From Desulfomicrobium baculatum DSM 4028 (lineage in GTDB: Bacteria > Desulfobacterota > Desulfovibrionia > Desulfovibrionales > Desulfomicrobiaceae): a DNA stretch of 64,000 nucleotides. This document shows positions 16,131 through 30,129 of the stretch, one piece after another. Position 1 is the first letter of the stretch. Every line of letters starts with the position of its first letter. The translations under genes were made by a program, and so were the position numbers. The DNA is taken from contig NC_013173.1 in assembly GCF_000023225.1 (NCBI RefSeq), forward strand, positions 622,501-686,500, in the 5' to 3' direction. The notes beneath the pieces were generated by a model. The model had not been told where the DNA came from, did not search any database, and was given only the letters and a program-made list of their open reading frames with translations.

Positions 16131-16508
16131 GCGTCTGGGGCTCAGCGTCCGGCATTATTTTTAGGTGACTGGCGAAAATGGGGCGGCTGATAATATTCTT
16201 TTCCTCAAAAAAAGCTTACGAACGATGTGAGGATGATTGGATCACAAGTAGTGAATGTTTATCTGCTCTTGGATAAATGTGTAGTAAAACAGTCCGAAAT
16301 ATGATGTCGACTTATTGGGTCTGAATTCAAAATGGTATTTACACATTGGCTTTTCTAGGCTAGCCGGTTTGCAAGGAAATTTAGATAGTAAAGTTAGTCT
16401 GCAGCATGATTTAAGTGGGTTGCTGACTCGGATTGTGATGCTGAGTTTGTGCTGAAATCATGTTCAAGAGAAGCTTTTGGCGTAACCTAGTTGGTAAGGA
16501 GGGCGTGT
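16131..16508. other. AT-rich leader region of the tmc operon
   Basis: 378 bases, visibly AT-richer than the flanking genes, with no coding sequence. It must hold the tmc promoter, but I cannot pick a convincing -35/-10 or -24/-12 pair. The palindrome proposed for the hmc promoter does not occur here. Confidence 0.5.
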
Positions 16509-20173: not shown

Positions 20174-20197
20174 CCGGCTTTAGTTTTCAGATCAGTG

Positions 20198-20231
20198 AAC
20201 CCGGCTTTCGTTTGAAGGCCGGGTTTTTTTT
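20198..20231 (+). terminator. Terminator of the tmc operon
   Basis: AACCCGGC/GCCGGGTT stem followed by eight T. Confidence 0.9.
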
Positions 20232-20631
20232 GCAAAAATTTTCCTATCCTGTTGTCCATCCTGCCGACATTTCAAAGTGATCTGTCTCGTTAAGCAAATG
20301 TATTCAGATTTAATTTTTCTATAAAAACAAGCATGTTGATTTGGTATTTTTGACCGGGTCCGGCCAGGAAAGTCCAGATATTTGAAATCTCAAGTGATTG
20401 TGAAAAAATGGATTAGCTCTTGACGGGTTTGTTGATATTCTATACCTCCGAGGTCGGAATAAATCATACCCGAATGGTCTGCTTAATCTCAATTTTTTTA
20501 GTGGACTTTATGTGCAGACGCACAAGGTTTGATTTTTTTCCGTTTTAAGGAAGGTGCAGGGGGGGCGGAGCCTCCGCGCGAGGGAGGTTTCCGGAATTTT
20601 CCGGAGCGGATTTCAACAAAGGAATTTTCAC
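20232..20631. other. Leader and promoter region of the hmc operon
   Basis: 400 AT-rich bases without a gene. It contains the candidate promoter and palindrome at 20420-20461. A pyrimidine-free stretch rich in GGGAGG-type runs lies around 20550-20590. Confidence 0.6.
20420..20461 (+). promoter_or_regulatory. Candidate hmc promoter with overlapping palindrome (possible Rrf2 site)
   Basis: TTGACG at 20420-20425 could be the -35 and TATACC at 20441-20446 the -10, with a short 15-base spacer. Overlapping it at 20436-20461 is a symmetric sequence: TATTC, 4 bases, CCTCCGAGG, 3 bases, GAATA, with the inner perfect palindrome ACCTCCGAGGT. In Desulfovibrio vulgaris Rrf2 represses hmc, so this is the natural candidate operator. 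That assignment is inference. Confidence 0.4.
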
Positions 20632-22176
20632 ATGGAGAAGGGAAGACCAATGCTGCGATGGGTTGGAATCCTGTGCGTAAGCATGGCTGTGGCTGGATTC
20701 GGTCTGAACGCTCTTGGGGGAAAACAGGAATCGGTCGAAACGAAAGCAATGGGCGCGGATCTCATATCCATCGAAACGCTCAAGAAGTTCGGTGATCTCG
20801 ATTATCCTGTGGTCCGGTTCGAGCATGACAAGCACACCAAGGCTGTGGAGGGGAAGTGCGAATCCTGCCATACTGTGACCGGCAACACGGTCACGGCCAA
20901 GTTCAAGCGTCAGGAAGATACGAATGCCGCGGAAATCAAGGCCATTTATCACGACAACTGCATCACGTGCCATGACGACACGTCCAAGGCCGGCAAGAAA
21001 AGCGGACCCGGCAGCGAGCAGTGCCGGACCTGTCACGCGGGGCCTGCGGATTCGTCACGGACGTTGATCTCGTTCGATAAATCCCTGCATTACCGCCACT
21101 CGTCTTCGAAGATGGTTCTTCCTGCCCCTGGGCAGAAGGAGAACTGCTCCAAATGCCACTCCCAGGACAAGCCCGAAGAGCGCAATCTCGCCTTTGCCGA
21201 GAACAAGGATCAGGCGCATGAAAAATGTCTGTCCTGTCATATGGAGATCGGTAAGGCGCAGCAGCCTACCGGTCCTGTAGAGTGCGCCGGCTGTCATGAC
21301 GCCACTGTCCGCGCCGGATTCAAGAAGGTCGCGGATGCGCCACGGCTTGAAGCCGGTCAGTCCGATTACGCGCTGCTCATGGCCGCCACGGCTCAGGCCG
21401 GAACCGAGCCCAAGCTGGTCAGCGCCGTGCCTTTCAATCACAAGCTGCATGAAGAAAAGAACGAGAACTGCTCGGTCTGCCATCATAACGCTTCGTCCAA
21501 GGGCGTGATCCCCTGTTCGCAGTGCCACACGTCATTGGGCAAGGAAGAGGGCGGCTTCATAACCACCGAGCAGGCCATGCACCGCGTGACCGCTCAGGCC
21601 AGTTGCGTGGGGTGTCATGCCCAGGCGCAGGCCAAGCCGGAATGCGCCGGATGCCACACCTTCATGGGTCGAACCGGTCAGAACACAGATGCCAGTTGCG
21701 TCAAATGCCATGTCGACATCACGCCCGGAGCTGAGCTGATCAATGACAAGAACGCCCGCAGCAACACTGCGGCGATGCTCATGAACACCCGCATCAAGAG
21801 CGACCCTGAGATCAAGGTCGGCGAGATTCCCGAGATCGTCGAGATCAGCGTCCTGGCCAACGAGTACCAGGCCAGCAAATTCCCACATCGCAAGATCGTG
21901 CAGAAGATCATGGAAGGCATGAAGGACGACAGCATGGCTGCGTACTTTCACTCCAGCCCGAACGCTGTCTGTTCCGGTTGTCATCACAACAGTCCAGCTT
22001 CAGCCAATCCTCCCAAATGCGTCAGTTGTCATGGCAAGGTCGCGAGCGCGCAGGATGGAGCCAAGCCAGACCTCAAGACCGCCTATCACCAGCAATGCAT
22101 CGGTTGTCATAGCGAAATGGGCATCCAGAAGCCGGCGGCCACTGCCTGCGCGGAATGTCATGCCGTAAAGCAATAA
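20632..22176 (+). CDS. hmcA: HmcA, high-molecular-weight multiheme cytochrome c
   Basis: 514 residues with an N-terminal signal for export. I count 15 CxxCH heme motifs between residues about 76 and 510. Grouped by spacing they are three, three, four, one and four. The D. vulgaris protein is described with 16 hemes (3, 4, 4, 1, 4), so one site of the second group seems absent. The protein is the periplasmic electron entry of the Hmc complex, receiving electrons from type I cytochrome c3. The start at 20632 (MEKGRPMLRW) has AAAGGAA upstream and resembles the known HmcA N terminus. The in-frame ATG at 20650 is an alternative. Confidence 0.93.
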   Translation: MEKGRPMLRWVGILCVSMAVAGFGLNALGGKQESVETKAMGADLISIETLKKFGDLDYPVVRFEHDKHTKAVEGKCESCHTVTGNTVTAKFKRQEDTNAAEIKAIYHDNCITCHDDTSKAGKKSGPGSEQCRTCHAGPADSSRTLISFDKSLHYRHSSSKMVLPAPGQKENCSKCHSQDKPEERNLAFAENKDQAHEKCLSCHMEIGKAQQPTGPVECAGCHDATVRAGFKKVADAPRLEAGQSDYALLMAATAQAGTEPKLVSAVPFNHKLHEEKNENCSVCHHNASSKGVIPCSQCHTSLGKEEGGFITTEQAMHRVTAQASCVGCHAQAQAKPECAGCHTFMGRTGQNTDASCVKCHVDITPGAELINDKNARSNTAAMLMNTRIKSDPEIKVGEIPEIVEISVLANEYQASKFPHRKIVQKIMEGMKDDSMAAYFHSSPNAVCSGCHHNSPASANPPKCVSCHGKVASAQDGAKPDLKTAYHQQCIGCHSEMGIQKPAATACAECHAVKQ

Positions 22177-22210
22177 CCTGCCCGGAAGGTCGCAATAACG
22201 AGGAGCTACT

Positions 22211-23269
22211 ATGAAACGCAGAAAATTCATTGGCATGCTGGCTGGCGCAGGAGCCTGTATGGCGGCGTCAACGGCCACAGCCGGTGGAACACATCATTTT
22301 AAGGGTTATCCCGAAAGCTTCGGGGTGCTCTTTGACAGCACCAAATGCATCGGCTGCAGAAAATGCGAAGCCGCTTGCAACAAGGTCAACGAACTGCCCG
22401 CGCAGCCGGTGCCCTTCGATGACCTGACAGTATTGGACTCAAGACGGCGTACGCACCACGACACCTTCACCGTGGTCAACAAATACTCCGTCAACGACAA
22501 GCCCGTGTACCGCAAGCAGCAGTGCAATCATTGCCTGGAGCCTGCCTGCGCTTCGGCTTGTTTCGTCGGCGCCTTTGTCAAGGACAAGACCGGGGCCGTC
22601 AGCCACGACGCCTCCAAGTGCGTGGGCTGCCGCTACTGTATGATCGCCTGTCCGTTTGAAATCCCGACCTACGAATATCACGATCCCATCACTCCCCGGG
22701 TACGCAAGTGCACCATGTGCCAGCCGCGGATCGAAGAAGGAAAGCTGCCGGGGTGTGTTGAAGACTGCCCCAAGGGCGCCCTGGTCTTCGGTCGCCGCGA
22801 GGACCTGCTGAACATTGCCCGTGAACGTATCCGCAAGCATCCAAACGTCTACATCGACCATATCTATGGCGAACGTGAAATGGGTGGAACGAGCTGGATG
22901 TATATCTCCGGCGTGCCGTTTGAAAAAATCGGCATGCGTGAGGATCTGGGCGTCACCCCTGCTCCGGAACTCACTTCCGGCGCACTTTCCCTTGTTCCGG
23001 CCATCGTGGGCCTGTGGCCCATGTTTTTGACCGGTGCCTATGCCCTGACCAAGCGTCGGGAGAAGATTGCCGAAGAAGAGCAGCACCATGCCGTGGCAGA
23101 GGCCGTGGCCGAAGCGCAGGCTGAGGCGGCAAAGAAGGCGAAAGCGGCCATGGACAAGGCGGAACGCGACAAGCAGGCCGCCATTGATCGTGAAGTGAAA
23201 AAAGCGCTCAAGGAAGCGGAAGAGGCCCGGCTCAAAGCCGAAACTCCCGCTGATCCGAGCGAGCAATAA
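22211..23269 (+). CDS. hmcB: HmcB, ferredoxin-like subunit with signal and coiled-coil tail
   Basis: 352 residues. The N terminus [14 protein letters not shown] looks like a Tat-type signal, although the second arginine is followed by K rather than the full RRxFLK. Four cysteine clusters follow ([35 protein letters not shown] and CTMCQPR with CVEDCP), giving four [4Fe-4S] clusters on the periplasmic side. A single membrane helix lies near 255-275. The last 65 residues are rich in A, K and E and are predicted coiled coil, ending in the cytoplasm. It links HmcA to the NrfD-like HmcC. RBS GGAG. Confidence 0.92.
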
Positions 23270-23281
23270 GGAGGAGTGTTG

Positions 23282-24451
23282 ATGTCTCACCACACCACAC
23301 CAAGCAAGACATTCTGGACTCCGGCGAACATCCTGACTGCCGTCATCCTGGTCATTGGCCTGGTTCTGACCGTGAAGCGGTTCACCATGGGCATCGGCTC
23401 GGTGACCAATCTGACCGACGACAATCCATGGGGCATCTGGATCGGTTTCGACCTGCTCTGCGGCGTCGCTCTGGCCGCCGGCGGTTACACGACCTCCGCG
23501 GCCGTGTACCTGTTCGGCATGAAAAAATATCACTCTGCGGTGCGTCCGGCCATCACCACCGCATTTCTGGGCTACGCCTTCGTGGTCTTTGCCCTGCTCT
23601 ACGACCTGGGCCGCTACTACCGGCTGCCCTATCCGCTGACCATCTATCCCGGCCCGACCTCCTTTCTTTTCGAAGTAGGTCTGTGCGTGGCCCTGTACCT
23701 GACCGTTCTGGCCATCGAATTCTCGCCTGCGCTGTGGGAAACCCTGCGCTGGAAGAAGCTGCGCTTCTGGGCGCATAGCCTGACCCTGGTGCTGACCATC
23801 TTCGGCGTTGTCCTGTCCACCCTGCACCAGTCTTCGCTGGGCGGGCTGTACCTGCTCGCGCCTTCCAAGCTGCATCCGCTGTGGTACTCGCCTTATCTCG
23901 CGCTCTTTTTCTTCATCTCAAGTATCCCCGCCGGTCTCTCCATGGTTATTTTCGAAGGGGGGCTGTCGCATAAGTTCCTGCATCACAAGATGGACGATAC
24001 CCACATCAAGGAAGCTCCCGGCGTAACCCTTGGTTTCGCCAAGGCCGCAGCGGTGGTCCTCTTTACCTACTTCAACCTGAAGTGGATCGGCGTGGCCCTG
24101 GACAACAACTGGCACTACCTGTCGACGGGCTGGGGCGCGTGGTTTCTGGTCGAAATGCTGGGCTTCGTGCTCCTGCCTTGCCTGATGTATGCGGTCGCGG
24201 CCCGCGAAAAGAACCAGAAGCTGGCTTTCTGGGCCTCCATCGTCACGGTGCTTGGCATCGTGCTGAACAGGCTCAACATCTCGCTGGTGGCCTTCAACTG
24301 GCAACTCCCGACCGAATTACGCTACGTCCCTTCCTGGGAAGAGATCATGATCACCGTATTCATCGTCACCCTTGAAATCACCGTGTTGCGGATCTGCCTG
24401 AACAAGCTGCCGATCCTGCATGAACACCCTGAGTTCAAGGGCGCGCACTAA
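23282..24451 (+). CDS. hmcC: HmcC, NrfD-like integral membrane subunit
   Basis: 389 residues with about ten membrane helices, a member of the NrfD/PsrC family that exchanges electrons or protons with menaquinone. Family-like stretches include TDDNPWGIWIGFD near residue 45 and the conserved acidic and aromatic residues in the fourth helix. It is the membrane core next to HmcB. The ATG at 23282 follows AAGGAGG; an in-frame GTG six bases earlier is less well placed. Thirteen bases separate it from hmcD. Confidence 0.92.
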   Translation: MSHHTTPSKTFWTPANILTAVILVIGLVLTVKRFTMGIGSVTNLTDDNPWGIWIGFDLLCGVALAAGGYTTSAAVYLFGMKKYHSAVRPAITTAFLGYAFVVFALLYDLGRYYRLPYPLTIYPGPTSFLFEVGLCVALYLTVLAIEFSPALWETLRWKKLRFWAHSLTLVLTIFGVVLSTLHQSSLGGLYLLAPSKLHPLWYSPYLALFFFISSIPAGLSMVIFEGGLSHKFLHHKMDDTHIKEAPGVTLGFAKAAAVVLFTYFNLKWIGVALDNNWHYLSTGWGAWFLVEMLGFVLLPCLMYAVAAREKNQKLAFWASIVTVLGIVLNRLNISLVAFNWQLPTELRYVPSWEEIMITVFIVTLEITVLRICLNKLPILHEHPEFKGAH

Positions 24452-24464
24452 AGGAGGCAGGAAA

Positions 24465-24614
24465 ATGGAATTCATGACACTTCATGACTTCATGTTCTGG
24501 ACCAAGGGCATGGCCTATGTAGGAATGGGCGTTGGTCTGGTGGCATTCGTGGCCTTCTGGCTGTTCTTGTCCGAAAGGGACGAGGACAAGTTCGCCGACA
24601 CGGAAGAAGAATAG
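24465..24614 (+). CDS. hmcD: HmcD, small membrane subunit
   Basis: 49 residues with one membrane helix (about 15-35) and an acidic C terminus, DEDKFADTEEE. There is no cofactor motif. It is assigned by position between hmcC and hmcE, and D. vulgaris HmcD is also a very small membrane protein. AAAGGAGG precedes the ATG at 24465. Its role in the complex is unknown, perhaps structural. Confidence 0.85.
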   Translation: MEFMTLHDFMFWTKGMAYVGMGVGLVAFVAFWLFLSERDEDKFADTEEE

Positions 24615-24649
24615 GCTCGGGCCTTATCCGACCAATGAAGGAGTAATCT

Positions 24650-25324
24650 ATGTATGAGATATTGACTGGTCCGCTGCTCTGGATTGCCTTTGCGGTATTC
24701 TTTGTCGGCCTGACCACCCGGGTGGTGCTGTATTTCATGGGTCTCGACTGGAGACTCGATCGCGTGGCCTACAAGCCGCACATGAATTACGGCATCAAAG
24801 GCGCTTTCAGGTCCGTGTATCGCTGGCTGCTGCCATTCGGGACATACAGCTGGAGGGCCAAGCCCATCTTCACGATCATGTTCTTCGCCTTCCACATCGG
24901 GCTGGTCATCGTGCCCCTGTTTCTGGAAGGGCACGCCGTCATGATCAGAAACGGTCTTGGCATCGATTGGCCGGCAATGCCGCAGCTGCTGGCGGACGTT
25001 CTGGCCATTGCAGCCTTTCTGGCCGGCCTTGGGATCGCCCTGCGCCGCCTGCTTTTGCCCGAGGTGCGCATCCTGACCGACATCAAGGACGTCATGCTGC
25101 TGGTGCTGATCCTGACCCTGCTGGGTTCCGGCATCATCGCCACCTACCATACCGCCAACTATTCGTTCTGGATCACCCTGCACGTGCTGTGCGGCGTGAT
25201 CGTGCTGCTGACCGCTCCCTTCACCAAGCTGTCTCATATTGCGCTCTTTTTCTGCACGCGCATTCAGATCGGCATGGATTTCGGGATCAAGCGCGGCGGA
25301 ATGAAGTCCAATTTTGACTGGTAA
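24650..25324 (+). CDS. hmcE: HmcE, cytochrome b-type membrane subunit (NarI-like)
   Basis: 224 residues with five or six membrane helices. Heme-ligand histidines are likely in [17 protein letters not shown] and [20 protein letters not shown]. It is clearly paralogous to TmcC, with the same length and the same order before a CCG protein. It would pass electrons between HmcC/menaquinone and HmcF. GGAG precedes the start. The gene is 35 bases after hmcD and 17 bases before hmcF. Confidence 0.92.
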
Positions 25325-25341
25325 GCCAAGAGGAATACGAT

Positions 25342-26724
25342 ATGCCCGAAGGTACAATTTGTAATAAGAGACCCGTTGCCTCCCGAGAGGATCTTGACGC
25401 CCTCTTGGCCGACAGCAACGGAAAGAAATACTATGCGGAAATGGAAGAACTGGATGTGGATGCCGAGAAGCTCTGGGCAACCATCCAGAAGACCATGAAG
25501 TCACGAACCAAAACATGGCTGGATATCTGCGCCCATTGCGGACTCTGCGCCGACAGCTGCTTTCTGTACAGCGTGAACGAGCGCGATCCCAAGCAGGTGC
25601 CCTCGTACAAGATCCAGTCCACTCTGGGCGAGATCGTCAAGAAGAAGGGCAACGTGAGCAACGAGTTCATGCGCATGTGCATGGACACGGCCTGGTCCAA
25701 GTGCACCTGCTGCAACCGTTGCGGCTCGTTCTGCCCCTACGGCATCGATATGGGCGTCATGTTCGGCTACCTGCGAGGACTGCTGCACTCCCAGGGTTTC
25801 GTGCCGTGGGAGCTCAAGATCGGTTCCGGCATGCACCGCCTGTTCCGCGCCCAGATGGACGTCACCGTCGAAGAATTCGTGGATACCTGCGAATGGATGG
25901 TCGACGAGGCCCTTGAAGAATGGCCTTGCCTGGAAATTCCGGTGGACAAGGAAGATGCCGACATCGTCTACATGATCAACGCCCGCGAGGCCAAGCATTA
26001 CCCCGAAGACATCGTCGAGGCGGCCATTCTGTTCCACGTGGCCGGGGAAAATTGGACCATGCCCTCCGAGGGCTGGGAAATGACCAGCCTCTCCATGTTC
26101 GCCGGTGACTGGGAAGCCTGCAAGATGCAGGTCGAAACCGTGTACGGCGCCATGGAACGTCTGCGTCCCAAACGCATGGTCGCTACGGAATGCGGACACG
26201 CCTACCGTGCCACGGTCATCGAAGGTCCGTATTGGGCCGGTCGGCCGGATGGACAACCCCCTGTGGAATGTCTGCACTATGTGGAATGGGTGGCCGAAGC
26301 ACTGGAAACAGGCAAGCTCAAGATCGATCCGGCCAAGAGAATAAAAGAGCCGGTCACGCTGCAGGACTCCTGCAACTACGTGCGTAATGCGGGACTGCGT
26401 GACTGCGGCCGAATCATCATGAAGCATATTGCGGAAGACTTCCGTGAGATGGCTCCCAACAAGGAGCACAACTATTGTTGTGGCGGTGGTGGCGGGTTTA
26501 ATGGTATCGGACGCTATCGGAAACAGCGCAACGTCGCGCTGAAGATGAAGCGGGAGCAGATCCTGGCCACGGGGGCGAAGTTTGTCATTGCCCCGTGCCA
26601 TAACTGCTGGGATGCCATCCGCGATCTGGAAGAGGAGTTCGAGATCGGCATCCGCTGGAGCTTCCTGAAGCCGCTTCTGATCAAGATGCTGGTTGTTCCG
26701 GAGCATCTCTTGCCGCAGGAATAA
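25342..26724 (+). CDS. hmcF: HmcF, cytoplasmic CCG-domain iron-sulfur subunit
   Basis: 460 residues without a signal. Two cluster motifs lie near residues 65-135, [13 protein letters not shown] and [14 protein letters not shown]. The C-terminal CCG region has [24 protein letters not shown] and IAPCHNCWD. HmcF is the HdrD-like cytoplasmic face of Hmc and should deliver electrons toward sulfate reduction or take them back. It is paralogous to TmcB. The start is ATG with AGAGGAA upstream. It ends the structural hmc genes; the Usp gene follows 66 bases later. Confidence 0.93.
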
Positions 26725-26790
26725 GTCTGTCCAGACAACGGCATGCCGCTTTTTAAGGCGGCATGCCGCAAACAGAACGGGAGTTGACAT

Positions 26791-27702
26791 ATGTTTACAA
26801 AGATTCTGTTCGCCACCTCCGGCTCTCCCTGTTGTGATGCCGCAGCGCGTGTCGCGTTTGATTTGGCAGCGCGTTATAATGCCAAACTTTTTGTGCACCA
26901 TGTGCTCGGAGTGCCCAGCCGGGGTTTCAGTCAGGTTGTGGTCGATGTGCGCACGGGCGAGAAAGTCGAGTTGGACGAAGATTACATCATGTGGGTCAAG
27001 GATGAGCTTAAGAACACCTATGACCGTCAGTTGAAGAGCGGAGTGGATTGCGAGATCGAGACCTCCGTAGGCATCCCGCACCGCGAGGTGCTGCGCAAGG
27101 CCCGCCAGGAAGACGTTGATCTGATCGTCATGGGTGCGAGCACCACCGGCTGCGAGGCCGATGCCGACGCCTATCAGCGCCATTTCGCCGGTTCGACCCT
27201 GCAGCGGGTGGCCAAGGCTTCCAAGGCTCCTGTGCTGGTGGTCAATCGTCCTGTGGCCTCATTTTGGGGCGGATTCACCAATATCGTCTTTGGCGCGGAT
27301 TTTTCCAAGGCGTCCGAACATGCGTTCAAGTTCGCCCTCAATACGGCCAAGGAACTTAATGCCAAATTGCATGTTTTCCATGCCATCGACATCGGCACCA
27401 CCCATAGCCTCATTTCCCAGAAGCAGCTCGACGACCAGATGATTGAGGCCCGGGATCGGATACGTCGCAAGTACCTGATCCAGGCCGGTGATTTCAAGAA
27501 TATCACGGCCGATATCTGGGAAGGCATCCCGTATGTCGAAATCGTCAAGTACGCACGTGAGAAGCAGGCCGATCTCATTGTCATGGCCCACCATTCCAAG
27601 GACGTCAGTGACGAGGACTCCGCGTTTGGGCACACATTGGAGCAGGTGTTGCTGCGTGCGACCTGTCCCGTGGCATCGGTCAATCGTGCGGATAAAATCT
27701 AG
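26791..27702 (+). CDS. Double-domain universal stress protein (UspA family)
   Basis: 303 residues with two tandem UspA folds (about 1-150 and 155-303). Each begins with the family beta strand (KILFATSGSPCCDAAA and NIVFGADFSKASEHAF) and contains VDLIVMGAS or ADLIVMAHHS. The ATP-binding G-2x-G-9x-G(S/T) motif is only partly kept (GASTTGCEADADAY in the first, GHTLEQVLLRA in the second), so nucleotide binding is uncertain. It lies between hmcF and rrf1 on the same strand, a position not found in the D. vulgaris operon, and is probably co-transcribed. It may tie hmc expression to stress or energy state; that is inference. Confidence 0.88.
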   Translation: MFTKILFATSGSPCCDAAARVAFDLAARYNAKLFVHHVLGVPSRGFSQVVVDVRTGEKVELDEDYIMWVKDELKNTYDRQLKSGVDCEIETSVGIPHREVLRKARQEDVDLIVMGASTTGCEADADAYQRHFAGSTLQRVAKASKAPVLVVNRPVASFWGGFTNIVFGADFSKASEHAFKFALNTAKELNAKLHVFHAIDIGTTHSLISQKQLDDQMIEARDRIRRKYLIQAGDFKNITADIWEGIPYVEIVKYAREKQADLIVMAHHSKDVSDEDSAFGHTLEQVLLRATCPVASVNRADKI

Positions 27703-27734: not shown

Positions 27735-28091
27735 ATGATGGGCAAGAAGATTCTGATCATTGATGACGATCCCAACATCGTCACGTATCTGGAAGACATT
27801 TTTCAGGACGCAGGCTACGCAACCTGCAAAGCTTCCGACGGTGCCGACGCGCTGGCCGTTGTCAAAGAGGAAAAGCCTGATCTGATCACTTTGGATCTTG
27901 AAATGCCAAAGGAATGGGGCCCGCGTTTTTACCGGGAGCTGAGCCAGGACGACGAATGCGGCAATATCCCCGTGATCGTCATCAGTGGCCTCTCCGGGAA
28001 CAAGTATGCGATTCAGAAAGCCGTGGCTTCCTTCACCAAGCCTTTTGATCGCGAGGACCTTCTGAAAGTCATCAAGGAAACAATTGGTTAG
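27735..28091 (+). CDS. rrf1: Rrf1, stand-alone response-regulator receiver
   Basis: 118 residues, one CheY-like receiver domain and nothing else. The acidic pair lies in LIIDDDPN near residue 10, the phospho-acceptor Asp in LITLDLEMPKEWG near 54, Thr/Ser in VIVISG and Lys in FTKPFD. In D. vulgaris Rrf1 and Rrf2 close the hmc operon. Without an output domain, Rrf1 must act by protein contact, the likely partner here being the downstream histidine kinase. GGGGGTG precedes the paired ATG codons. Confidence 0.9.
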   Translation: MMGKKILIIDDDPNIVTYLEDIFQDAGYATCKASDGADALAVVKEEKPDLITLDLEMPKEWGPRFYRELSQDDECGNIPVIVISGLSGNKYAIQKAVASFTKPFDREDLLKVIKETIG

Positions 28092-28109
28092 CCGCAACTC
28101 AAACGTGAA

Positions 28110-28154
28110 AAACCCTTGCCCGGGCGCATATGTGAAACGAGCAAGGGTTTTTTG
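28110..28154 (+). terminator. Terminator hairpin between rrf1 and the kinase gene
   Basis: AAAACCCTTGC and GCAAGGGTTTT arms with a 20-base loop and a T run. The kinase GTG start follows directly, so its AAGGG ribosome-binding site lies inside the 3' arm. Confidence 0.78.
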
Positions 28155-29689
28155 TGGCAAAACATATGCATGACATCGTCCTTTCCGAATCCATTGTGAT
28201 CATAACCCAGGACCCTGAGCACGGCAGGGTCCTGGCGCATATCCTGAATGAATATGGGTATCAATCTTCCAACTGCGATTATGACGACGCTCTTGTCACC
28301 GTAGGCGTGGTGCGGCCGCGGCTGGCGGTTCTGGGGATCTGTGATTGCCAGCTCGGACAGGAGTTGCTGCGGCGGATTCGTGTCGGTTATCCGGAAGTGC
28401 GTATTATCGTCCTGGTTCCGGATGGCGAATATGACCTGGGATTGGGTTTCCTGGCTGATGGCGCTTCGGATTTTCTGTACAAGCCCGTCTCGGAGAGGGC
28501 CCTGCGCATTACTCTTGATCGGGCTCTGACCCTGCTTGACCTGCAGCAGGAAAATGGGCTCCTGAAGGAAAAGAACAAAATCCTCGGATCCAGCCATCAG
28601 CTTTGCCGTCAACTTTTCGATGAAGTGCCGTGCTATATCTCGGTGCAGAACAGGGACCGTCGCATCGTGCGGGCAAACCGGCAGTTCAAGCTCGATTTCG
28701 GCTCGTGTCTGGGCGAGCGCTGCTATGAAATCTACAAGCATCGCACACACCCGTGTCCGCAATGTCCCGTGGAGGAAACCTTCCGCGACGGCATGGTGCA
28801 CCAGACCGAAGAGGTGGTCACCACGCGCGGCGGCCAGCAGAAGATCGTGCTGACCCTGACCGCCCCGTTGCGTGACGAGAAGGGCGAGATTCATGAAGTC
28901 ATGGAACTTGCCACGGACATTTCGCAGATCCGCGAGTTGCAGGGTCGGCTGACCTCGCTTGGGCTCTTCATCGGCTCCATCTCGCACGGCGTGCGCGGCA
29001 TGCTGACCGCACTCGACGGTGGACTGTACCGGCTTGAAAAGGGCATCTCGAACAAGGATCTGGAGCTTGTCGCCAACGGTGCCGAGCGCGTCAAGCTGAT
29101 GATATCCCGGATTCGCAATTCCGTTCTGGAGATGCTCTATTATTCCAAGGACCGGGACCTCAATATCCAGCTCATCGATGTGCACAGTTTTGGCGACGGG
29201 GTGGCCAATTTTGTCGAACCTAAAGCCACCAAGCACGATGTTCGCTTTCAAAAGGAATTTCATGGCGAGCTGGGGCGATTTGAAATCGATCCGGAAGTCA
29301 TCTCCGCCGGCCTGGTCAACATCCTCGAGAACGCGGTGGACGCGTGCATCGAAGATGAATCCACGGATCGCCATAATGTTTCCTTCCTGATCGAAGGCAG
29401 CAAGGATTCTGTTTCATTCATCATCCGGGACAATGGACCGGGAATGGACCGTGCTACTCAGGAAAAAATGTTTTCCTTGTTTTTCTCTTCCAAGGGTAGC
29501 AAGGGGACTGGGCTTGGGCTTTATATAGCCAATGATGTCGTCCATCAGCACGGCGGGCAGATCCACGTCGATTCGACGCCGGGTGAAGGTACTGAATTTC
29601 GGGTGGATTTGCCCCGCAAGCATGTACGATTGGAAAATCGGGCAAATGGTGCCCAGAATGAGTCCGGCAAGTCCGGCGGCAATGGCTAG
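28154..29689 (+). CDS. Histidine kinase with pseudo-receiver and Cys-rich PAS domain
   Basis: 511 residues. Residues about 10-125 fold like a receiver, but the acceptor Asp position reads LAVLGICD (Gly for Asp) and the acidic pair is ITQDPE; only the Lys of LYKPVS is kept, so it should not be phosphorylated. About 150-260 is a PAS-like domain with CYEIYKHRTHPCPQCP, three Cys that could bind metal or a cluster. About 265-330 is the His domain (SISHGVRGML, H the likely phospho site). About 375-490 is the ATPase with NILENAVDAC, DNGPGMD and GTGLGLYIAND. It is soluble, so it senses a cytoplasmic signal. GTG at 28154 is taken as start; ATG at 28166 is possible. Confidence 0.88.
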   Translation: MAKHMHDIVLSESIVIITQDPEHGRVLAHILNEYGYQSSNCDYDDALVTVGVVRPRLAVLGICDCQLGQELLRRIRVGYPEVRIIVLVPDGEYDLGLGFLADGASDFLYKPVSERALRITLDRALTLLDLQQENGLLKEKNKILGSSHQLCRQLFDEVPCYISVQNRDRRIVRANRQFKLDFGSCLGERCYEIYKHRTHPCPQCPVEETFRDGMVHQTEEVVTTRGGQQKIVLTLTAPLRDEKGEIHEVMELATDISQIRELQGRLTSLGLFIGSISHGVRGMLTALDGGLYRLEKGISNKDLELVANGAERVKLMISRIRNSVLEMLYYSKDRDLNIQLIDVHSFGDGVANFVEPKATKHDVRFQKEFHGELGRFEIDPEVISAGLVNILENAVDACIEDESTDRHNVSFLIEGSKDSVSFIIRDNGPGMDRATQEKMFSLFFSSKGSKGTGLGLYIANDVVHQHGGQIHVDSTPGEGTEFRVDLPRKHVRLENRANGAQNESGKSGGNG

Positions 29690-29712
29690 ACCTTGAAAAT
29701 TTGGAGGACCGC

Positions 29713-30129
29713 ATGCGCTTGACCACGCGAAGCCGGTATGGAACGCGATTGCTGCTCGATATTGCCTTGAATCAGGACAGAGGTTGGGTCAATACGACGG
29801 ATATTGCCAGGCGTCAGAAAATTTCACAGAAATACATCGAAAAATTGATCACGGGTCTGCGGCGTGGCGGGCTCATCGAGAGCAAGCGCGGTCCTTTTGG
29901 CGGTCACAAGCTGGCCAAGCCTGCCATGGACATCACTGTCGGGGACGTGGTGCGCTCCCTTGAAGAAAAAGTGGCCCTGACCCAGTGTGCCGAAGGGGAG
30001 CCCATCTGCGGGGAGTGTTCCCTGGCTGGCGAATGCGTGACGCAGTTTGTCTGGATCGAAGCCAGCAATGTGCTCATGCAGACTCTTGACTCCTACCGCC
30101 TAGGGGAACTGGTCGCCCGCAAGGGATAG
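29713..30129 (+). CDS. rrf2: Rrf2 family transcriptional regulator
   Basis: 138 residues. The N-terminal winged helix-turn-helix MRLTTRSRYGTRLLLDIA and the recognition region with ISQKYIEKLITGLRRGGLI are diagnostic of Rrf2. Cysteines in LTQCAEGEPICGECSLAGEC supply three or four ligands of the kind that hold a [2Fe-2S] cluster in IscR/NsrR. In D. vulgaris Rrf2 represses hmc. The ATG at 29713 has GGAGG upstream. It is the last gene of the extended hmc transcript and is followed by a terminator. Confidence 0.93.
   Translation: MRLTTRSRYGTRLLLDIALNQDRGWVNTTDIARRQKISQKYIEKLITGLRRGGLIESKRGPFGGHKLAKPAMDITVGDVVRSLEEKVALTQCAEGEPICGECSLAGECVTQFVWIEASNVLMQTLDSYRLGELVARKG

Follow-up and report, generated by a model that had tools for sequence, protein, structure and literature searches.

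A histidine kinase with a degenerate N-terminal receiver encoded behind the hmc genes of Desulfomicrobium baculatum

Results

Gene organization of the locus

The window, i.e. the whole stretch of 64,000 nucleotides that was analysed, is part of the D. baculatum DSM 4028 genome, a single contig of 3,942,657 bp. From position 16491 the genes follow in the order tmcD, tmcC, tmcB, tmcA, hmcA, hmcB, hmcC, hmcD (putative), hmcE and hmcF, and behind hmcF lie genes for a Usp protein, a stand-alone receiver, a kinase and an Rrf2-family protein. TmcB, TmcD and HmcF passed NCBIfam cut-offs, and the naming of tmcC, tmcA and hmcA-E is based on Pfam, gene order and family knowledge. The features discussed here are the following.

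20452..20470, + strand: candidate Rrf2 operator GGTCGGAATAAATCATACC, directly downstream of the -10-like element in the hmcA promoter region (upstream alignment)
20632..26724, + strand: hmcABCDEF, membrane redox complex; hmcA start set at ATG 20632, hmcD putative
26791..27702, + strand: Usp gene with two Usp stretches, part of the same cassette (Pfam, locus comparison)
27735..28091, + strand: stand-alone receiver ('rrf1') of the NCBIfam DVU0259 family with intact active site, likely phospho-partner (HMM, neighbour counts)
28109..28151, + strand: hairpin into a T-run between the receiver and kinase genes, attenuator/terminator candidate (folding, covariation)
28166..29689, + strand: soluble histidine kinase, pseudo-receiver/PAS/DHp/ATPase (ORF list, Pfam, conserved start)
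28187..28489, + strand: pseudo-receiver, residues 12-112, with T18/Q19, G61, V88 and K110 (HMM, models)
28604..28927, + strand: PAS domain, residues 151-258, with Cys190, Cys201 and Cys204 (Pfam, relatives, dN/dS)
28928..29623, + strand: DHp (His278, box HGVRG) and ATPase domain, residues 259-490 (Pfam, relatives, structure matches)
29701..30129, + strand: Rrf2-family transcription factor (Pfam, NCBIfam)

The kinase ORF of 511 aa at 28154-29689 (+) was found as first annotated. The start conserved among the orthologues is ATG 28166 rather than the GTG 28154 of the listed ORF; by eye, no clear Shine-Dalgarno sequence precedes it.

Relatives of the kinase were collected by scanning GTDB contigs with patterns derived from the window protein (80 of 86 kept). 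A second set comprised the best 30 places from 82 genomes with a match, among 150 genomes of the order. Because of these patterns and of the restriction to the best 30 places, the counts given below lean towards close relatives. Removal of L002-L004 (the same genome's other kinases) and of eight duplicate-assembly rows left 102 distinct relatives, from which a quick tree of the kinase core was made with 101 rows, the truncated L104 being omitted.

The pseudo-receiver

The domain order of the kinase is receiver-PAS-DHp-ATPase. In Pfam, PAS_4 matched residues 155-259, HATPase_c residues 386-489 and Response_reg residues 14-119, the last with 27.2 bits, which is below the curated cut-off of 30.2 (E 4.5e-6). 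Besides this E value, the receiver character of the N-terminal domain was indicated by its fold: the receiver-only AlphaFold model matched the YycF receiver (3f6p) with Z 20.6 over 118 residues (rmsd 1.4). Both AlphaFold models had the normal (beta-alpha)5 fold, with a mean pLDDT of 83 for the whole protein and 93.6 for the receiver alone.

In an alignment to a receiver HMM made from the receivers in the fetched loci, the place of the acidic pair was occupied by Thr18-Gln19 (IVII-TQ-DP), that of the acceptor Asp by Gly61 (LAVL-G-ICD) and that of the Thr/Ser by Val88 (IIVL-V), and Lys110 (FLY-K-P) alone was retained. In the models Thr18/Gln19 follow strand 1 (12-17), Gly61 stands at the end of strand 3 (57-61), Val88 near the end of strand 4 (83-89) and Lys110 at the end of strand 5 (106-110). 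HMM and models thus bore out the initial annotation, which had claimed an N-terminal receiver without phospho-acceptor Asp and without the acidic pair. The structural check that it had proposed, for another Asp in the acceptor place, found none: the nearest one, Asp64 in 'GICD', comes three residues after the acceptor position and is replaced in relatives (L098 has Gly there, L100 and L102 have Gln), and so no other Asp fills this place. The acceptor Asp is absent from all 15 distinct Desulfomicrobiaceae kinases of the tree, which excludes a sequencing error. Judged from sequence and models, the N-terminal domain is a pseudo-receiver that would be unable to take phosphate.

Between five close species (ten pairs) the pseudo-receiver had a dN/dS ratio of 0.075, compared with 0.058 (DHp), 0.064 (ATPase) and 0.011 (PAS). 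The value for the pseudo-receiver is close to those of DHp and ATPase, indicating that the domain is maintained and not decaying.

PAS domain and kinase core

All 102 relatives, the most distant with about 35% identity, have Cys190, Cys201 and Cys204 in the PAS domain. The triad is not unique to this kinase family, since 19 of 61 other matches to the PAS model contain it; among the 42 matches without it many are partial and do not span the triad region. According to the secondary structure of the model, the triad is located around short helices ahead of strand 216-223, and cofactors of PAS domains are commonly located around short helices preceding such a strand. The triad may have a metal, Fe-S or thiol-redox role. 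A sequence search for a solved PAS structure with such a triad found none, the best hit (E 0.24, a nuclear receptor) being judged a chance match. Matches to PHROGs were confined to the PAS/kinase part.

The DHp domain is formed by helices 257-299 and 303-331 in the AlphaFold model. His278 is present in 101 of 102 relatives, the remaining one being truncated, and the N, G1, F and G2 boxes are preserved: N393, D426, G428 and G430 in 101/102, G451, G453 and G455 in 100/102, with gaps in the rest. The best Foldseek matches were histidine kinases or kinase-like sensors, and HK853-type folds were matched. With its invariant His in a two-helix DHp and its ATPase boxes the protein qualifies as a sensor histidine kinase, of which the His box, ISHGVRG at 28979-28999, is atypical. 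In HisKA kinases an acidic residue after the His is needed for autophosphorylation. In the 101 relatives with letters at this place the residue is never Asp or Glu and is Gly (87), Ser, Asn, Ala or Thr, and position His+3 is invariably occupied by Lys or Arg. Pfam HisKA did not match the window kinase, and it matched five of eight relatives with 13.2-18 bits, all below the cut-off of 26.9; the DHp domain is thus not of the HisKA type. Autokinase activity appears likely from these features, with less certainty than usual because of the non-acidic residue and the missing HisKA match.

The stand-alone receiver as candidate partner

In the HMM alignment all active-site residues of the stand-alone receiver of the window were intact, and the protein passed the cut-off of NCBIfam NF045717 (the DVU0259 family; 198.5 bits, cut-off 160), a model whose name gives no function. 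We counted how often an intact stand-alone receiver is encoded within 700 nt of the kinase. It adjoins all 23 kinases that lack the Asp and 22 of the 23 that keep the Asp and have lost another active-site residue (none was found at L032), i.e. 45 of 46 pseudo-receiver kinases overall. It also adjoins 31 of 37 canonical kinases (of the others, three have only a cut or non-canonical receiver and three none) and, downstream, 13 of the 18 relatives without N-terminal receiver. As canonical and receiver-less kinases have this neighbour too, the pairing is with the kinase core. The counts show that core and separate receiver are the constant elements and that the N-terminal domain is the variable one.

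Covariation was examined at twelve DHp/receiver specificity pairs, known from the HK853/RR468 work. In the whole family these pairs covaried above random column sets (fraction 0.0004, n=93) and above entropy-matched sets (21 of 18960), and the true register ranked 24 of 3864, in a statistic that includes the kinship among the rows. Three shuffled kinase-receiver pairings gave no covariation (0.23, 0.53, 0.58). Canonical kinases covaried with the stand-alone receiver (0.003) and with their own (0.009). For pseudo-receiver kinases the covariation with the stand-alone receiver was not significant (0.30, n=45, effective 19) and there was none with their own N-terminal domain (0.20). The subset values, given here for every subset examined, mean that the pairing is supported for the family and not specifically for the window. 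The suggestion that Rrf1 is the true phosphorylation partner thus gains from the neighbour counts and the family-wide covariation and gets no significant support from the pseudo-receiver subset; on sequence grounds the stand-alone receiver is the likelier phospho-partner than the kinase's own receiver.

Repeated degeneration in the family

The 101 rows of the tree comprised 37 kinases with a canonical N-terminal receiver, 23 that keep the Asp and have lost another active-site residue, 23 without the Asp and 18 in which the receiver HMM found no N-terminal receiver. Pseudo-receivers (46 of 101) occur on several branches. The presence of the Asp changes at least seven times on the tree, with four changes of the no-Asp label forced by starred branches, counts that do not separate gain from loss. 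Among the 46 pseudo-receivers the Lys is kept in 43, the Asp in 23 and the Thr/Ser in 14.

The state of the receiver was compared with the gene context in the tree set. Of the kinases flanked in the retrieved DNA by Usp (upstream) and Rrf2 (downstream), all 32 carry a pseudo-receiver, and all nine behind tmcA are canonical. With Usp and no Rrf2 seen, eight were pseudo-receivers and eight canonical; other or cut contexts (44 rows) included six pseudo-receivers, 20 canonical receivers and 18 kinases without receiver. In the longer stretches, L125 and L127 have the order usp-receiver-receiver-kinase-rrf2, yet the receiver of the kinase is canonical; the same is true of the receivers of two short kinases, L044 and L170. 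These exceptions show that degeneration is forced by neither context nor architecture.

Three proposals were dropped. Short architecture as the cause of degeneration failed as a rule on L044 and L170; an exclusive linkage of canonical kinases to Tmc failed because several of them sit behind hmcF; and an apparent receiver-kinase fusion in L054 (577 aa) proved to be two in-frame genes with a stop codon between them.

When 395 genomes were drawn from the phylum, 38 had a match; these gave mostly known pseudo-receiver loci and one short canonical kinase, L170. The draw was not independent of the first collection, since L166 is identical to L018 and L169, left out, is the window's own locus. L167, L168 and L171-L173 resemble L085, L086, L033, L039 and L035, respectively, by length and residues.

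Receiver-less kinases with the same PAS/kinase core were seen behind HmcF/TmcB-like iron-sulfur genes (L062, L063, L065-L068, L072, L075-L078, L080-L084 and L087), on contigs whose titles include Gemmatimonadota, Planctomycetota and Acidobacteria.

Gene layouts behind hmcF

In the initial annotation the Usp and kinase genes were regarded as additions to the hmcF-rrf1-rrf2 order of D. vulgaris. The comparison of loci did not bear this out. The order usp-receiver-kinase(-rrf2) behind hmcF recurs in many Desulfobacterota loci. Among 20 stretches downstream of hmcF from Desulfovibrionales, 17 were usable (L136, L139 and L141 were too short; L132 is from the same genome as L103). Usp, receiver(s) and kinase were present in eight (L125, L127, L129, L130, L131, L132, L138, L140), receiver and rrf2 only, as in D. 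vulgaris, in two (L126, L128), and rrf2 only in one (L122). In the remaining six (L123, L124, L133, L134, L135, L137) none of the four genes was found in this order; L135 has other receiver and Rrf2-like ORFs. The arrangement of the window is probably ancient and common to these relatives, not the product of a recent insertion, and on the simplest reading the hmcF-rrf1-rrf2 loci are stripped-down layouts that lost usp and the kinase.

The receivers of the two receiver-rrf2 loci scored 129.6 and 129.5 bits, below the DVU0259-family cut-off of 160, and were long-branched within a group of 11 rows (99% SH-aLRT) that they form with other hmc-linked Desulfovibrionales receivers, in a tree with few columns and some duplicate rows. 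Of the eight receivers beside kinases that were scanned with them, seven passed the cut-off and that of L130 did not (126.3). The receiver of the window, first named rrf1, is a member of the DVU0259 family, whose cut-off is missed by the receivers of the D. vulgaris-like loci and by that of L130.

In L122, L123 and L124, which belong to the same genus, hmc is present without the usp-receiver-kinase block behind it and one of the three keeps rrf2; the cassette is thus dispensable.

The region upstream of hmcA

The product of the gene behind the kinase belongs to the Rrf2 family (TIGR00738, 127 bits against a cut-off of 73.3; PF02082, 128 against 30). The region upstream of hmcA was aligned in 16 rows from 15 Desulfomicrobiaceae genomes. 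The element GGTCGGAATAAATCATACC was kept with few mismatches in 14 of the 16 rows, among them, with one mismatch, that of G024, which has rrf2 alone behind hmcF. In G039 and G048 the element has diverged. These two genomes carry hmc, lack the usp, receiver, kinase and rrf2 genes over the following 8 kb, and have no orthologous Rrf2 and only one Rrf2 paralogue each (34-36%). The conservation suggests GGTCGGAATAAATCATACC as a candidate Rrf2 operator; its divergence in G039 and G048 may represent a single loss event. TTGAC was found in all 16 rows.

The inverted repeat CCGGAATTTTCCGG at 20591-20604, just before hmcA, is exact in 14 of 16 rows. It was not favoured as an Rrf2 operator, as it is exact in G039 and G048, too, and has a second exact copy in the genome, in a stretch without listed Hmc-like ORF.

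Two further elements were observed. Upstream of the -35-like element of hmcA lies TTGTGAA (20398-20404; 15/16 rows), which resembles half of a CRP/FNR-type site. Between tmcA and hmcA there is a strong terminator-like hairpin with a T-run (20197-20226), so that the adjacent Tmc and Hmc genes are probably separate transcription units.

Hairpins of the cassette

Each of the 15 distinct Desulfomicrobiaceae sequences folds into the hairpin between the receiver and kinase genes, and in most of them a T-rich tail follows. Its z-scores, calculated against 100 mononucleotide shuffles, were -2.1 to -6.5, as compared with a lowest value of -1.4 after usp. At eight of the eleven consensus pairs at least one of the 15 sequences was changed on both sides. 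The hairpin may attenuate expression of the kinase relative to the receiver. As a general trait of pseudo-receiver loci it was dropped: in 30 other loci, tested with the DNA after the best-scoring receiver ORF (L032, where no receiver was found, was unscored), only L017 and L021 reached a z of -2.

Between hmcF and usp (26725-26790) there is another hairpin, which has no T-run. It was seen in seven of eight examined Desulfomicrobiaceae loci including the window; the eighth, L056, was read from a mis-set ORF end.

Discussion

The gene neighbourhood described here is partly known already. In Desulfococcus multivorans, genes for Usp, response-regulator and histidine-kinase proteins were reported by Hmc and Tmc and were likened to D. 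vulgaris; these are the gene types of the window, and the passages on this locus make no mention of receiver degeneracy, a partner receiver or an operator (PMC5109826). For Solidesulfovibrio carbinolicus, parts of another article list Usp and a response regulator at the hmc locus, and for D. vulgaris an hmc operon of hmcABCDEF with rrf1 and rrf2 (PMC10924467). Like the latter, the window has a receiver gene and an Rrf2 gene behind hmcABCDEF. The D. vulgaris locus is not known to have usp or a kinase. The window receiver is a member of the DVU0259 family, and its gene sits behind hmcF and usp. Our search of the open-licence literature brought up no work that describes receiver degeneration for kinases linked to Hmc, nothing on this kinase in work on rrf1, hmc, tmc or DVU0258/0259/0529/0530, and no published account of the repeated degeneration, the covarying receiver-kinase hairpin or the operator.

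Pseudo-receivers make up about 6% of bacterial receivers, according to parts of a 2025 perspective that calls their switching a mystery; it describes kinase inhibition by the pseudo-receiver of ShkA, lifted by c-di-GMP, and inhibition by that of CikA, with quinone binding reported for CikA and KaiA (PMC12632262). At such a frequency a single case is ordinary. The window kinase is like ShkA and CikA in carrying a receiver fold without the phosphorylation chemistry on a histidine kinase. The pseudo-receivers of ShkA and CikA are C-terminal to the kinase core. In contrast, that of the window kinase is N-terminal, before PAS and DHp, and the true receiver is a separate protein.

We lean towards a reading in which the kinase acts as sensor in a cytoplasmic two-component pair dedicated to Hmc, is tuned by its pseudo-receiver and has the neighbouring receiver as its partner. 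The Cys-triad PAS domain would sense a redox state or a metal/Fe-S cofactor. His278 would then be autophosphorylated, as its invariance and the intact ATPase boxes suggest, and the phosphate would pass to the neighbouring single-domain receiver instead of the kinase's own N-terminal domain, which has lost the acceptor. That domain would descend from a true receiver and persist as a module that works without phosphorylation, most likely by touching the kinase's own DHp or coiled coil and so adjusting kinase activity or the access of partners. The phosphorylated receiver would act by protein contact, plausibly with Rrf2, to which only gene adjacency links it, and Rrf2 would bind at the predicted operator near the -10 element of hmcA. 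The receiver-kinase hairpin could keep the level of the kinase below that of the receiver.

The alternative that survives best, though we think it unlikely, is that the N-terminal domain serves solely for dimerisation or as structural support at the end of a long coiled coil, without a part in signalling. Its fifth helix continues in the AlphaFold model as a single helix (114-157) into the PAS domain, its conservation among 15 orthologues is the lowest of all folded domains (mean identity 63%, against 77-88%), and the receiver-less relatives keep kinase and stand-alone receiver together in 13 of 18 cases. A pure scaffold fits less well with the purifying selection on the domain and with the conservation of K110-P111, whose Lys is kept in 43 of 46 pseudo-receiver rows, and with conserved positions in helices 1 and 5.

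We give a slightly lower probability to the pseudo-receiver as the main sensory input, by binding of a small molecule such as a quinone or by a Cys switch, with the PAS domain secondary. Regulation of pseudo-receivers by quinone, c-di-GMP and Cys dimers has been reported (parts of PMC12632262). Hmc moves electrons across the membrane, as known for the family, and Cys63, two residues past the old acceptor position, is invariant in the 15 Desulfomicrobiaceae sequences. However, in the inspected rows of the wider alignment, every second one, the Cys63 column is not Cys outside this family, and the PAS domain is far more constrained than the pseudo-receiver (dN/dS, see above).

It is a little more doubtful still that the protein is no autokinase and serves as phosphatase of, or adaptor for, a stand-alone receiver phosphorylated elsewhere. 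The non-acidic residue after the His in 101 of 101 relatives and the absence of a Pfam HisKA match in the window protein would agree with this, but the invariant His278 and the intact N, G1, F and G2 boxes argue for a kinase; that D. vulgaris-like loci keep the receiver without such a kinase adjacent to it is compatible with either view. A phosphorelay receiver that uses another residue, or works with low efficiency, is very improbable: Asp and Lys are kept in 23 and 43 of the 46 pseudo-receiver relatives, respectively, but four of the five active-site residues are gone in the window protein and no alternative Asp stands at the end of strand 3.

A more far-reaching idea, which we regard as improbable, is that Hmc-linked kinases have repeatedly converted a phosphorylatable receiver into a sensor that follows the membrane electron pool through a ligand or a protein. 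In one soluble kinase with an unusual His box, the Cys-triad PAS domain would then read the cytoplasmic redox state and the pseudo-receiver the state of quinone or Hmc. If this were true, a natural series from true receiver to sensor would exist within one kind of operon.

With the tuned sensor kinase as the favoured reading, the point of interest is that the loss recurs within one family while an intact partner is encoded alongside. Canonical receivers, partial loss and complete loss occur in a single kinase family, largely beside one type of redox complex and nearly always with an intact receiver adjacent, and can be compared directly. The Hmc complex gains a candidate sensor, a candidate relay and a candidate operator, which are partly absent from the D. 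vulgaris-like layout.
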